Assembly (NCBI GenBank): GCA_016188625.1
Contig: JACPHL010000023.1
Coordinates: forward strand, 1-6,433
Source of the DNA: Candidatus Rokuibacteriota bacterium
Lineage (GTDB): Bacteria; Methylomirabilota; Methylomirabilia; Rokubacteriales; JACPHL01
Reading direction: 5' to 3'
DNA: 6,433 bases
How positions within the stretch are numbered: position 1 is the first letter of the stretch; each line of letters opens with the position of its first letter. This document shows positions 1,530 through 6,433 of this stretch, in pieces. A program made the position numbers and the translations under genes. The notes under the pieces were generated by a model that saw only the letters and a list, made by a program, of their open reading frames with translations, was not told where the DNA came from and did no database searches.

Positions 1530-2585
1530 CTACCGCCGGTCGTCCGGAGAGCGCATCGCCAGCCCGGTCGCCACGGTCGCCAGCGGGGCCACCCGCTGGA
1601 TCTCGTCGGGGGAGACCCCTGGCGCGGCGATCTTCACCTGGCGGAAGGGGTCGGCCAGGCTCACGTCGATCCCCCACTGGGAGGAGAGGAAATCCCTCAA
1701 CCCGGGGATCAGGGCGCAGCCGCCCGAGAGGAAGATCCGGTCGAGCCGCTCGTGCTCGGCCGTGGTGCCGAAGTAGTCGAGGGTGCGTTGGATCTCCTGG
1801 CCCAGCTCCTGGGAGACCAGCTCGAGAACCGGCCCGACCTGGGCCCAGGCGACGGACCCTTCCTTCCCCCGCAGCACGGCCTCCGCCTCGGGGAGCGGCA
1901 GGTTGAAGCGCTGGGCGATGCTGGAGGCGTACCGGGCCCCGCCCATGAAGATGTCCCGGGCGTAGACGCTCACCCCGCCCTGGAGGATGTTGGTGTTGGT
2001 GTTCTCGTGGCCGATGTTCACGATGGCCACGACCTCGTTGGTCTCGCCGGCGTAGTTGTGCTCGTACTGGGTCTCGAGGGCGAAGACGTCGGCGTCCACC
2101 ACCACCACGTTCAGGCCGGCGGCCTTCGCGACCTCCGCGTAGGACTCCACCTTCCCCTTCTTGACCGCCGCCAGCATGACGTCGATCTGGGGCCCACCGC
2201 CGGCGACGATCTGGAAATCCAGGTTGACGTCGTCGATGTCGAAGGGGATGTACTGCTCGGCCTCCCAGCGGATGGACTCCGCCAGCTCGGCCTCGGACAT
2301 CTTGGGGAGCTTCACCCGCTTGGCGATCACGGAGCCCCCCGACACCCCGATCACGGCGTCCGTCGCGTCGGTCTTGGAGTCGGCCAGCGCGCTCCCGATG
2401 GCGGCCTGCACCGCGCCGGGCTCCCGGATCTCCCCGCCCTCGATGGCCCCGAGGGGGACCTCCGCCATGCCGAAGGCGGCCAGCTGGTACCCGCTCCCGG
2501 CGCGCTTCAGCTCGACCACCTTGACGGCGCTCGAGCCGATGTCCACACCGATCACGTGAGCCTTGCGCTTGCCGAACAGCGCCAT
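1530..2585 (-). CDS. pilM: PilM, cytoplasmic actin-like ATPase of type IV pilus assembly
   Basis: This 351-residue protein matches PilM in length and throughout. It is a cytoplasmic FtsA/actin-fold nucleotide-binding protein that holds the N-terminal tail of PilN and so couples cytoplasmic motors to the envelope complex. Visible motifs are phosphate-1 GVDIGSSAVKVVEL (13-26), YIPFDIDDVNLDFQ (112-125, typical of the family), phosphate-2 IVNIGHENTNTNIL (188-201) and the adenosine motif IFLSGGCALIPGL (284-296). In phosphate-2 the usual Asp before IG is Asn190. I recall Asn here in other PilM proteins from related lineages, so I treat it as a variant and not a defect. The ATG at 2585 has AGGA about 5 nt upstream. 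A promoter candidate lies about 65 nt upstream, making pilM the likely first gene of a pilMNOP unit. Confidence 0.97.
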   Translation of the reverse strand: MALFGKRKAHVIGVDIGSSAVKVVELKRAGSGYQLAAFGMAEVPLGAIEGGEIREPGAVQAAIGSALADSKTDATDAVIGVSGGSVIAKRVKLPKMSEAELAESIRWEAEQYIPFDIDDVNLDFQIVAGGGPQIDVMLAAVKKGKVESYAEVAKAAGLNVVVVDADVFALETQYEHNYAGETNEVVAIVNIGHENTNTNILQGGVSVYARDIFMGGARYASSIAQRFNLPLPEAEAVLRGKEGSVAWAQVGPVLELVSQELGQEIQRTLDYFGTTAEHERLDRIFLSGGCALIPGLRDFLSSQWGIDVSLADPFRQVKIAAPGVSPDEIQRVAPLATVATGLAMRSPDDRR

Positions 2586-2680: not shown

Positions 2681-2714
2681 AAAAAAGTGGGCAGGCTCAC
2701 GACCGCTTCCGCCC
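2681..2714 (-). terminator. Possible weak intrinsic terminator at the end of the hybrid kinase gene
   Basis: GGGCGG (2714-2709) can pair with CTGCCC (2694-2689) with one G-T pair and a 14-nt loop, followed after two bases by six T residues (2686-2681). The left arm lies inside the last codons of the kinase gene. The long loop makes this weak. The same T tract may instead serve as upstream A/T-rich DNA for the pilM promoter. Confidence 0.35.
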
Positions 2715-3398
2715 GGCCAGCAGGCCGCGGACGGTGTTGAGGAAGTCCTGGATATCGAAGGGCTTCCCCAGCACCAGGTCCACGCCCAGCTCCTTCGCCC
2801 GCCGCGTCGCCCGGGCCCGGTCGAACCCCGACATGATCACGACCGGCGTGGCGGCGTCCCGGCCCTTGACCGCCTCGACCACCTCCCACCCCGACACGTC
2901 CGGCATGGCCAGGTCGGTGACGACCAGGTCGAAGCGGCCCTGACGCTCCCGGACCCTGGCGATCGCGTCGAGTCCTGACGGGGCGACCGTGACGGCGTAC
3001 CCCGCGCTCCTGAGCACGTCGGCGACGGCGGTCAGGACCCCTTCGTCGTCGTCCACGACGAGCACCTCGGCCCGCTCCTCCGGGGGCGCCTCGGGGGCCT
3101 CGCCCGCCGGCGGGATGCGGAGGGCGACCGTGGTCCCCCGGCCCGGCGCGCTCTCGATGGCGGCCTCGCCGCCGTGGCGCGCCATGACCCCGTAGACCAC
3201 CGCCAGCCCGAGGCCGAGGCCTTTCTCCCCCTTGGCCGAGAAGAACGGCTCGAACGCCCGCCGCTTCACCGGCTCCGGCATCCCCTCGCCGGTATCGGTG
3301 ACGGCGATGACGCCGCGCCCGCCCTCGCTGCCGGTGCGGACGGTGATCGTGCCGCCCTCGGGCATCGCGTCCACGGCGTTGGCGATGAGCTGGACCAC
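2697..3398 (-). CDS. Hybrid histidine kinase, C-terminal half: HATPase domain plus receiver domain (frame-shifted fragment)
   Basis: This 233-codon frame holds the catalytic and receiver parts of the kinase that begins at 4804. Fragment residues 5-11 read IANAVDA, the ATP-binding N-box (Asn7), followed by the G1 box DTGEGM (35-40), F-box FEPFF (49-53) and G2 box GLGLGL (60-65). After a Pro/Glu linker (about 97-110), a complete receiver domain follows (about 111-228), with acidic pocket VVDDDE (114-119), phosphoacceptor Asp162 in VVTDLAMPDVSG, and Lys212 in LGKPF. It is out of frame with the upstream half because of the 50-bp duplication at 3395-3492. The 3398 GTG is only where the open frame happens to offer a start codon; in the restored protein it is an internal valine. 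GCGAGG lies close upstream, so weak reinitiation cannot be excluded. Alone, the fragment lacks the phosphorylated His domain. Confidence 0.85.
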   Translation of the reverse strand: MVQLIANAVDAMPEGGTITVRTGSEGGRGVIAVTDTGEGMPEPVKRRAFEPFFSAKGEKGLGLGLAVVYGVMARHGGEAAIESAPGRGTTVALRIPPAGEAPEAPPEERAEVLVVDDDEGVLTAVADVLRSAGYAVTVAPSGLDAIARVRERQGRFDLVVTDLAMPDVSGWEVVEAVKGRDAATPVVIMSGFDRARATRRAKELGVDLVLGKPFDIQDFLNTVRGLLAGRKRS

Positions 3399-4804
3399 GG
3401 CCTCGCGCAGCTCCCCCTCCAGGCCCGAGATCGCCGGGGGCGTCCCACGGCCTCGCGCAGCTCACCCTCCAGGCCCGAGATCGCCGGGGGCGCGCCGAAG
3501 TGGGTGACCAGCTCGACCCGGATCCCCTTCGCCGCCGGCTGGTCGCGCCACTTGGGCCGGGCCTGCTCCACGGCCCGCTGGACGACCTCGTTGAGGTCCA
3601 CCGGGCCGAAGGCCTCGGCGGGGCGGGCGCTGAAGGCCTGGATCCGGGTGAGGGCGTCGATCCCGGCCCGGGTGGTCTGCTCGATCTCGGCCAGGCCCGC
3701 CAGGAGCTCCTGGGCCCGCTCGCGCCGGGCCTGCCGGAGGAGGAGCTGGGTGCGGCCGAGGATCCCCGCCAGCACGTTGTTGAAGACGTGGCCGACGCCC
3801 GAGGCCATGTTGATGAGGGCCTGCATCTTCTCGTCCATGGGGATGGAGTCCGCGCCGGGCCCCTCCCGGACGACCTCGACCGGCACCTCGACCCGCACCT
3901 CCCTGACCACCTCCTTCACCACCTCGACCGGGACCTCCCTCACGACCTCCCGGACGACCTCCTCCCGGACCACCTCGCCGGCGGCGGACGGCTGGGTCGC
4001 GCGGAGCGCGGAGGCGAGCAGGTCGGCCCCGAGCCGGAGCACGGCCAGCTCGCCGGGGGTGGTCGCGAGCGCCTGGGACCGGCCGACGACCAGGAGCCCG
4101 AGGGTTTCGTCGCCGACCCGGAGGGGGAGGAGCCCCGCCAACCCGAGCCCGGCCATCGGGCGCGCCAGCCAGACCGGCTCCACCCGCCCGAGGGCCTGCC
4201 CGAGCTGGGCGGCCGGGAGGCGGGCGAGGGGCTCGAGTGCGCCCGGGGGGGCGAGCCACCTGAACCCCGCTCCCTCCGGGAGAGCAACCCCGGCAAAGTC
4301 CATGCCGCCACCCTCGGCCAGGGCGGGCAGGAGCGTCAGCGCCGCGTCCTCGGGCGTCCCGCTCTTCCCCAGGGCCGCCCGGAGGGCCGTCCCCAGCCGC
4401 TCGATCCCGCCTGCCGTCTCGGGCAGCGCCGGCTCGGCCGTGACGGGGCCCGCGGAGGGCGCGCCCGCAACCCCCTGCTTGAGGAGGTCGAGGAGGAGGC
4501 GGGTGCCGAGGACGCTCATCACCTCGACGCCCGGGGGCTTGATGGAGAGGAGCCGCTCGTACTGGCGGTCGTCCCCGTTGACCTCGAGGACCACGTTGGC
4601 GTCGGTGCGGAAGATCGCCATCCAGTTCTTCTCCAGCGGGAGGTTGAGCCGCTGGGCGAGCCTGGCGCCCTCCGAGCGGTCGCTGGCGTCCGCGACGACC
4701 GCGATCTCGACCCCGGGGATGCCCCTCAGGGCCTCGATGGCCTCGACCATCTCGGGCCCGGTCCCGACCAGGCCGAAGCGGGCAGGGGTGGCAGGCGCCG
4801 CCAT
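3266..4804 (-). CDS. Hybrid histidine kinase, N-terminal half: Rossmann-like, GAF-like and HisKA domains (frame-shifted fragment)
   Basis: With the ATG at 4804 as residue 1, residues about 9-110 look like a NAD(P)-binding Rossmann fold: beta-strand then FGLVGTGPEM, then VEIAVVADAS and later ANVVLEVNGD. Residues about 135-270 resemble a GAF domain (MDFAGVALPEG, then LLPLRVGDETLGLLVVG). A Val/Glu repeat linker (277-315) leads to a HisKA H-box with His339 in GVGHVFNNVLAGI. Reading stays correct to about residue 453 (LEGELREAV). The duplication at 3395-3492 then shifts the frame, the remaining residues are meaningless, and translation stops at 3266. No transmembrane segment is seen, so the protein should be cytoplasmic. 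A GTG at 4834 would add ten residues, but it lies upstream of the start site implied by the TATAAT box and lacks a ribosome binding site, so I prefer the ATG. Confidence 0.83.
   Translation of the reverse strand: MAAPATPARFGLVGTGPEMVEAIEALRGIPGVEIAVVADASDRSEGARLAQRLNLPLEKNWMAIFRTDANVVLEVNGDDRQYERLLSIKPPGVEVMSVLGTRLLLDLLKQGVAGAPSAGPVTAEPALPETAGGIERLGTALRAALGKSGTPEDAALTLLPALAEGGGMDFAGVALPEGAGFRWLAPPGALEPLARLPAAQLGQALGRVEPVWLARPMAGLGLAGLLPLRVGDETLGLLVVGRSQALATTPGELAVLRLGADLLASALRATQPSAAGEVVREEVVREVVREVPVEVVKEVVREVRVEVPVEVVREGPGADSIPMDEKMQALINMASGVGHVFNNVLAGILGRTQLLLRQARRERAQELLAGLAEIEQTTRAGIDALTRIQAFSARPAEAFGPVDLNEVVQRAVEQARPKWRDQPAAKGIRVELVTHFGAPPAISGLEGELREAVGRPRRSRAWRGSCARPWSSSSPTPWTRCPRAARSPSAPAARAGAASSPSPIPARGCRSR
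3395..3492. repeat. Tandem direct duplication (48-bp copies, 50-bp period) inside the kinase gene
   Basis: Copies at 3395-3442 and 3445-3492 are identical at 47 of 48 positions. The one difference is C3414 versus A3464 on the plus strand. They are separated by TC (3443-3444), which matches neither the left flank (GA) nor the right flank (CG). The 50-bp period is not a multiple of three and causes the frameshift, whereas a bare 48-bp duplication would have stayed in frame. The copies encode the end of the HisKA-HATPase junction (about GAPPAISGLEGELREAV). Confidence 0.95.
3863..3976 (-). repeat. Val/Glu tetrapeptide-repeat linker in the hybrid kinase
   Basis: The encoded stretch (residues 277-314 from the ATG) is built from about nine EVxx units: EVVR, EEVVR, EVVR, EVPV, EVVK, EVVR, EVRV, EVPV, EVVR. 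The DNA repeats only imperfectly, with variants of a 12-nt unit such as GAGGTCGTCCGG (plus strand CCGGACGACCTC). The repeat is therefore clear in protein and degenerate in DNA. It joins the GAF-like domain to the HisKA helix, where signal-relay helices often lie. Confidence 0.75.
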
Positions 4805-4928: not shown

Positions 4929-6433
4929 TCAGTTACAGGCGGTCGGCCCGCCCGACTCGTCGCCGTAGGTGGCGCAGTGGATCCAGCTGGACCGGGCCCA
5001 CACCGGGAACACCCCGCCGCCCGGGACGGAGAAGCCGGGGGGTGGGGCCGCGTTCCCGTACGTCTCGTTGTAGGTGATCGAGGTCGCGGCGTTGTTGACG
5101 TTGATGTCGTAGGCGACGATCCCGCCGTTGACGGTGATGGGGTTGAAGTCCACCGTCCCGCCCGAGAAGACGATCCCGTTGATCCGGCTCGTCGCGTTCG
5201 AGATGTCGAGGTGGATCGACTGGCCGGTCGTCGGGTAGACGGGGGCCGGGTCGTCCGCGTCGTTCGGCGGCGGCCCGCCGGGGGCGTAGGGGTCGAAGGC
5301 CAGGATCGCGAGCGGGTAGCCGCAGGTATTCGCCCCGCCGGTGCAGGGGTTGGTCGTGATCCGGTTCGTCCCCGACAGCGTGAGGTCGCGGTTCGGCCCG
5401 GTGCTGCCCGGCACCCCGTTGCCGTGCAGCACCAGGGTCCCGTTGATCTCGACGTTGTTCGTGACGCTCGCCTTCCCCATCACGTAGACGACGACCGAGC
5501 TGTTGGCCCCGGCCTGGTAGCACGGGCGGGAGGAATCCTCCCCCTGGGTCCCCATGCACGCGGCGTTGTGGGGTGGGGCGGTCCCGAAGGTGACGTCCGC
5601 CCCGGTGGCGCGGTTCGCGGCCGTCCCGAAGAAGACCATCCCGTGGCACTTGGAGGGGTTGGCCGCGCAGGTGGCGAAGTTGGGGTTGAGCGGATCACTG
5701 GTCCACGGTAAGGTCCCCGCCGGGGTTCCCCCGGGCTGGGTCTGACAGTTCCCGCCCATGCAGTCCCGCCGGGTAGGGGCCGCGGTCTGGATGGCCCACT
5801 GGTAGTACGGGAAGATCACGCAGGTGTTCTGAAGGGTCATGGAGGCGACCATGTCGGTCGGGACCAGCGTCGCCGGGATCTGCGACGCGCCCGCGCCCAC
5901 CCCGCAGCGCATGTCGTTGGGGAGCGGGAGCTGCCCCTTGACCGGTCCATTGGGGTCTTTCGGGTCTGCGGGGGAGACGCAGTTCTGGTTGGCGCAGGCG
6001 GGGACCTGGTCGTCGGTGCAGAGCTGGTCGTTGCCGCTGTAGCAGGAGTGCTTCCAGGGGTTCGTGTACTCGACGAAGACCCGGACGCGGGCCCGGCCGG
6101 CCCCGCCCGAGGCCCACCCACCGCCGGTCGCGGTCGTGGCCCAGGCGGTCAGGGCGGCCTTCTCGTTGCCGTCCTGGTTCGCCCCGCAGCCGGTGTCGGC
6201 CAGGACCGCCGGGACGATGTTGGGCGAGCAGTCGTTGTCGATCCGGACCGCGTAGGTCCCGCCCCCGAGCTCCTGGCCCGAGATGACCATGGCGCCGTTG
6301 TTCGCGTTGGCGACCCAGGTGTCGAAGTTCTCGGAGCCGGCGCTCAGGACGAGGTTCCGGGCGTGATCCAGGCCCGCCTCGGCGAGGGCCAGGGCCTGGA
6401 CGGCCTGCTTCTGGTTGAGCCCGATCCGGGTCT
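4929..6433 (-). CDS. PilX-like type IV minor pilin / pilus tip protein (N-terminus beyond right window edge)
   Basis: The frame is open from the window edge to the TGA at 4931-4929, giving 500 visible residues. An internal ATG at 6290 is not the start, because the 47 codons before it read in frame and include NQKQAVQALALAEAGLDHARNLV, the 'A..AEAGl..A' pattern of the PilX N-terminal domain just after the prepilin helix. The cleavage site and most of the hydrophobic helix lie off-window. Residues about 48-290 are Gly/Pro/Asn-rich with many paired cysteines; residues about 310-470 show short V-x-I/L-x-G strands (VEINGTLVLHGNG, INGIVFSGGTVDF, ITVNGGIVAYDINV) suggestive of a beta-helix or beta-solenoid. 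There are 18 visible cysteines, an even number consistent with periplasmic disulfides. A role in pilus priming or adhesion is inference. PilX in Pseudomonas is far smaller, so I give no symbol. Confidence 0.8.
   Translation of the reverse strand, partial: TRIGLNQKQAVQALALAEAGLDHARNLVLSAGSENFDTWVANANNGAMVISGQELGGGTYAVRIDNDCSPNIVPAVLADTGCGANQDGNEKAALTAWATTATGGGWASGGAGRARVRVFVEYTNPWKHSCYSGNDQLCTDDQVPACANQNCVSPADPKDPNGPVKGQLPLPNDMRCGVGAGASQIPATLVPTDMVASMTLQNTCVIFPYYQWAIQTAAPTRRDCMGGNCQTQPGGTPAGTLPWTSDPLNPNFATCAANPSKCHGMVFFGTAANRATGADVTFGTAPPHNAACMGTQGEDSSRPCYQAGANSSVVVYVMGKASVTNNVEINGTLVLHGNGVPGSTGPNRDLTLSGTNRITTNPCTGGANTCGYPLAILAFDPYAPGGPPPNDADDPAPVYPTTGQSIHLDISNATSRINGIVFSGGTVDFNPITVNGGIVAYDINVNNAATSITYNETYGNAAPPPGFSVPGGGVFPVWARSSWIHCATYGDESGGPTACN

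Follow-up and report, generated by a model that had tools for sequence, protein, structure and literature searches.

The 50-bp duplication that breaks a hybrid histidine kinase gene in the window is, in our judgement with a probability of roughly 86%, a local assembly artefact within an intact and ordinary gene, and thus most likely not a real feature of the organism. The window, as we call the whole stretch of DNA that was analysed (6,433 nucleotides), is an entire contig (C33) of a draft genome of 2.6 Mb in 344 contigs that is 84% complete. The evidence that carries this reading comes from the geometry of the two copies, from the single copy found in related genomes and from the recurrence of similar duplications in the same assembly, regardless of gene function and frame, in four conserved genes within 1.01 Mb.

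Structure of the kinase gene and its duplication

The kinase lies on the minus strand with its start at 4804, and its N-terminal part remains open as far as 3266. The HATPase_c and receiver domains follow from about 3461 to 2697 in the -1 frame relative to the N-terminal part. Up to the copies, the N-terminal part (3494-4804, minus strand) consists of an N-terminal region, a linker of EVVREVPVEV repeats and a DHp-like segment (GVGHVFNNVLAGILGRTQLL). A Pfam search of this part gave no match; the NCBIfam models for CckA- and VirA-like kinases match residues 323-413 (last 110 residues of the N-terminal part), a region without a Pfam domain in which a histidine lies within GVGHVFNN. The C-terminal part (2697-3398, minus strand) carries the ATPase domain with its N-box (PF02518, E 1.1e-21) and a Response_reg receiver domain (PF00072, E 8.2e-24) without an additional frame break. 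The N-box reads NAVDAM and the G boxes DTGEGM and GLGLGL.

The duplicated segment occupies 3395-3442, the copy downstream in the gene direction and in the C-terminal frame, and 3445-3492, the upstream copy in the N-terminal frame, both on the minus strand. Each copy is 48 bp long and encodes PPAISGLEGELREAV in its own frame; the two are identical at 47 of 48 positions with a period of 50, the sole mismatch being C3414/A3464. When the window was shuffled 300 times (mononucleotide shuffling), the best 48-bp match reached 33/48 (periods 20-120), so the observed match is far above chance. Between the copies lie the bases TC (3443-3444, no strand assigned), which differ from the bases at the corresponding positions of both outer flanks, GA (3393-3394) and CG (3493-3494). 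The 50-bp tandem duplication is therefore imperfect. On its upstream side the C-terminal frame is closed by a TGA (3464-3462) that owes its existence solely to the mismatched base A3464.

The earlier note had described a hybrid histidine kinase gene that is broken by two 48-bp copies at a 50-bp period and adjoined by pilus genes, and all of this is present, with the one mismatch and the intervening TC. Its arithmetic is also borne out: from 4804 to 2697 there are 2108 nt, and removal of one 50-nt period leaves 2058 nt, or 686 codons including the stop. It had further placed the break exactly at the HisKA/HATPase junction. There is indeed a frame break in the kinase, but the copies are located at the start of the ATPase domain and run into the N-box helix. 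A separate start for the C-terminal part was also considered; by inspection, the candidate GTG at 3398 falls within the N-box helix and would give a product without the start of the ATPase domain, and it was thus rejected.

Two further features of the N-terminal part deserve mention. The linker (3862-3971), an in-frame EVV(R/K)EVPVEV repeat of coiled-coil-like character that connects the N-terminal region to the kinase core, varies in length and is much longer, roughly 200 residues, in one orthologue (genome G003, locus L114). The N-terminus itself (4450-4804; RFGLVGTGPEMVEAIEAL...VADASDRSEG) matched no Pfam family and appears by eye to be Rossmann-like (dinucleotide-binding), making it a possible and unusual sensor domain for a pilus-linked kinase.

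Genomic neighbourhood and related genomes

Downstream of the kinase lies an intact pilM (1530-2585, minus strand; PF11104, E 8e-76). Upstream, at 4929-6431 on the minus strand and running off the contig, is a gene without a Pfam match that, judging from synteny, probably encodes a PilX-like minor pilin or pilus assembly protein. Among 95 genomes of the phylum, clear orthologues of the kinase were found in only two (G002 and G003), which belong to the same order as the genome of the window and to other families. No second genome of the same species or genus was found, the relatives being related at the level of order only, and a scan of genome contigs returned only distant kinases with at most 45% identity. 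Gene order is the same in both relatives, with pilM next after the kinase; in G003 a PilX-like gene also lies upstream, and pilN and pilO downstream. The kinase, which the two relatives share, is an ordinary one of the hybrid histidine type and belongs to a cluster of type IV pilus genes.

In both relatives the kinase is a single open frame (719 and 735 codons between stops), and the repeat is absent at this position. The N-terminal part of the interrupted gene shares 59% identity with the intact G002 orthologue over 461 aligned positions. The sequences that correspond to the two flanks are 45 nt apart in G002 and G003 and 95 nt apart in the window, a difference of exactly 50 nt or one copy, from which we conclude that a single copy is the ancestral state. 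Between the C-terminal part and the two relatives, dN is 0.18-0.21 and dS 0.65-0.96 (dN/dS about 0.2-0.3), values no worse than those of the N-terminal part. The gene has therefore not been decaying. This comparison, which the earlier note had recommended, agrees with its view that the break is recent or artefactual.

Similar duplications in the same assembly

We surveyed 130 non-masked contigs of the assembly (1.01 Mb, about 39% of the genome) for tandem near-duplications with periods of 8-700. Two smaller in-frame tracts were set aside (L178, periods 21 and 60; L192, period 18), leaving four duplications with periods of 42, 43, 47 and 50, all in conserved genes. Besides that of the kinase, the one in contig C280 (L205, 5071-5156) is an exact duplication of period 43 that changes the frame of the main sdhB gene; the segment concerned, ALEMHPLDTHSRT, occurs once and in an unbroken frame in 7 homologues from the class. 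A gene for a HEAT-repeat protein in C18 (L135, 5228-5320) is likewise frame-broken, by a duplication of period 47 with 43/46 identical positions, and is one open frame in three relatives according to a comparison of search tables. In C342 (L249, 1742-1825), a duplication of period 42 (39/42) repeats a 14-residue stretch close to the C-terminus of a 2-oxoacid dehydrogenase E1-beta; for this gene, also compared by search tables, the best three structures listed align through the first copy only.

Mismatches are thus present in three of the four duplications, with the C280 pair exact, and three of the four periods are not divisible by three, a property that real coding repeats under selection would not be expected to have. 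By comparison, the coding tandem repeats that we inspected elsewhere (80 loci, about 0.84 Mb) all had periods divisible by three, namely 84, 51 and 36, and a repeat of period 49 was among the non-coding-looking ones. The rate of repeats per base in the surveyed assembly is not above that in these 80 loci; what stands out is the narrow size range, the frame-blindness and the type of genes affected.

The sampled contigs contain nine runs of N, 1-79 bases long, and exact 141-bp overlaps exist between three pairs of contig ends of this genome (L146/L247, L158/L161 and L186/L235), which suggests a large assembly k-mer of about 141. Taken together, the N runs and end overlaps make it probable that the assembler used a large k-mer and that scaffolding followed. 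When the flanks of the N gaps were checked as additional duplicated overlaps, the shared stretch never exceeded 11 bp. A second copy of the kinase locus with a single unit was not found in the same genome, the window being the sole full-length match.

Discussion

The narrow size range of the duplications, their frame-blind placement, the mismatches in three of four and the small N gaps lead us to infer that contig ends were joined without merging their overlap, and that such a blind join, rather than mutation, gave rise to the duplication in the kinase. Two contig or read-path ends with an overlap of about 48 bp would have been laid end to end and the overlap left unmerged; it would then be present in duplicate, one base differing between the copies and two bases without support lying where they meet. 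Unpolished contig ends are what the mismatches, found in three cases, and the odd bases at two of the joins look like. In the organism itself there is most likely one copy only, and the hybrid histidine kinase of the pilMNO region is intact. For IDBA-UD and CLC assemblies, scaffold joins at which the overlap stays duplicated have been described (PMC7111523), and slightly divergent copies can be placed side by side by mis-assembly (PMC2864568, PMC9516828).

Some observations count against an artefact. Kelley and Salzberg state that mis-assembly is rare for duplications inside one contig (PMC2864568), and the 98-bp structure could be spanned by large k-mers if the ends were joined within the assembly graph. 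In the four cases the copies are separated by 0-2 ordinary bases and no Ns (the N gaps lie elsewhere), unlike the published cases, so that the fit is imperfect, and the one or two additional bases at the join in two of the four are unexplained by a simple overlap without end errors. Additionally, the survey reaches only about 39% of the genome.

Alternatively, a recent short tandem duplication could have inactivated the kinase in the sampled strain, or in part of its population, with no role in switching. We regard such an ordinary mutation as unlikely. The gene is otherwise intact, its relatives are single-copy, and gene-inactivating short tandem duplications are known in natural isolates, for instance in pneumococcal wchA (PMC4022640). 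However, this would leave the similar-sized duplications in sdhB, the E1-beta gene and the HEAT-repeat gene as coincidences; their presence in conserved genes, sdhB included, points instead to a systematic assembly error. Moreover, the TC junction and the mismatch would be odd if the duplication were fresh, and they argue for an artefact, as the copies of a clean tandem duplication should agree across the full period. The undecayed C-terminal part speaks against an old duplication, and we count it for the artefact together with the 45 nt in the relatives against 95 in the window.

The earlier note had gone further and proposed a reversible switch, in which slippage or recombination drops one copy and turns the kinase on again. 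This is mechanically possible, since loss of one copy joins the two frames, and spontaneous duplications within capsule genes reportedly cause phase variation in pneumococcus (Waite et al., 2001, 2003, cited in PMC4022640). Nonetheless, we found the proposal unsupported and consider it very unlikely: there is no second allele and no other sign of two states, the repeat is not conserved in either relative, only two copies exist, one of them mismatched and with unmatched bases at the junction, and the same kind of duplication occurs in three other conserved genes, including one where switching would be senseless. Indeed, sdhB, which encodes a succinate dehydrogenase subunit, is not plausible as a phase-variable gene. 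Slightly less credible still is a combined version, in which the duplication is real in part of the population, gain and loss of 50 bp toggle the pilus-linked kinase, and the lineage has an unusual genome-wide process of tandem duplication of about 45 bp. Finally, translation of both copies through a -1 ribosomal frameshift, yielding a kinase with 17 additional residues, has a negligible probability. Only arithmetic speaks for it: the change from the upstream to the downstream frame is -1, and 50 + 1 gives 51 nt. We judge it unlikely because the -1 frame contains the TGA (3464-3462), which limits where the slip can occur, namely after this stop; judged by eye, the sole candidate slip site is the run of five C in the second copy and no stimulatory element can be recognised, and the relatives need no frameshift.

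If the duplication were real, it would give an uncultured bacterial lineage a simple switch for a pilus-linked kinase. The assembly artefact that we favour carries a caution: frame-breaking duplications of about 45 bp in draft metagenome genomes can mimic pseudogenes or phase-variable switches. Scanning the assembly for duplications of the same size in essential genes offers a quick way to tell these apart.

Among known systems, unmerged-overlap scaffold joins in metagenome assemblies (Chen et al., 2020; PMC7111523) are alike in that a short stretch is doubled by an overlap that goes unrecognised at the joined ends; in those cases Ns separate the copies, whereas ordinary bases, two at most, do so here. 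Duplicated overlapping contigs, or false duplications, also place slightly divergent copies next to each other, but they are long, come from diploid vertebrate genomes and lie on separate contigs or across gaps, unlike the duplication in the window (Kelley and Salzberg, 2010; PMC2864568; PMC9516828). A search of the literature for reversible duplication in histidine kinases retrieved only a duplication of 208.6 kb, which is not relevant here. Phase variation by spontaneous sequence duplication reportedly occurs in the pneumococcal capsule genes studied by Waite and colleagues in 2001 and 2003, and the likeness lies in a short duplication within a gene that could alter the reading frame and later be removed. 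In the capsule genes switching was reportedly observed, whereas the window presents a single assembled state for which an artefact is the likelier origin.
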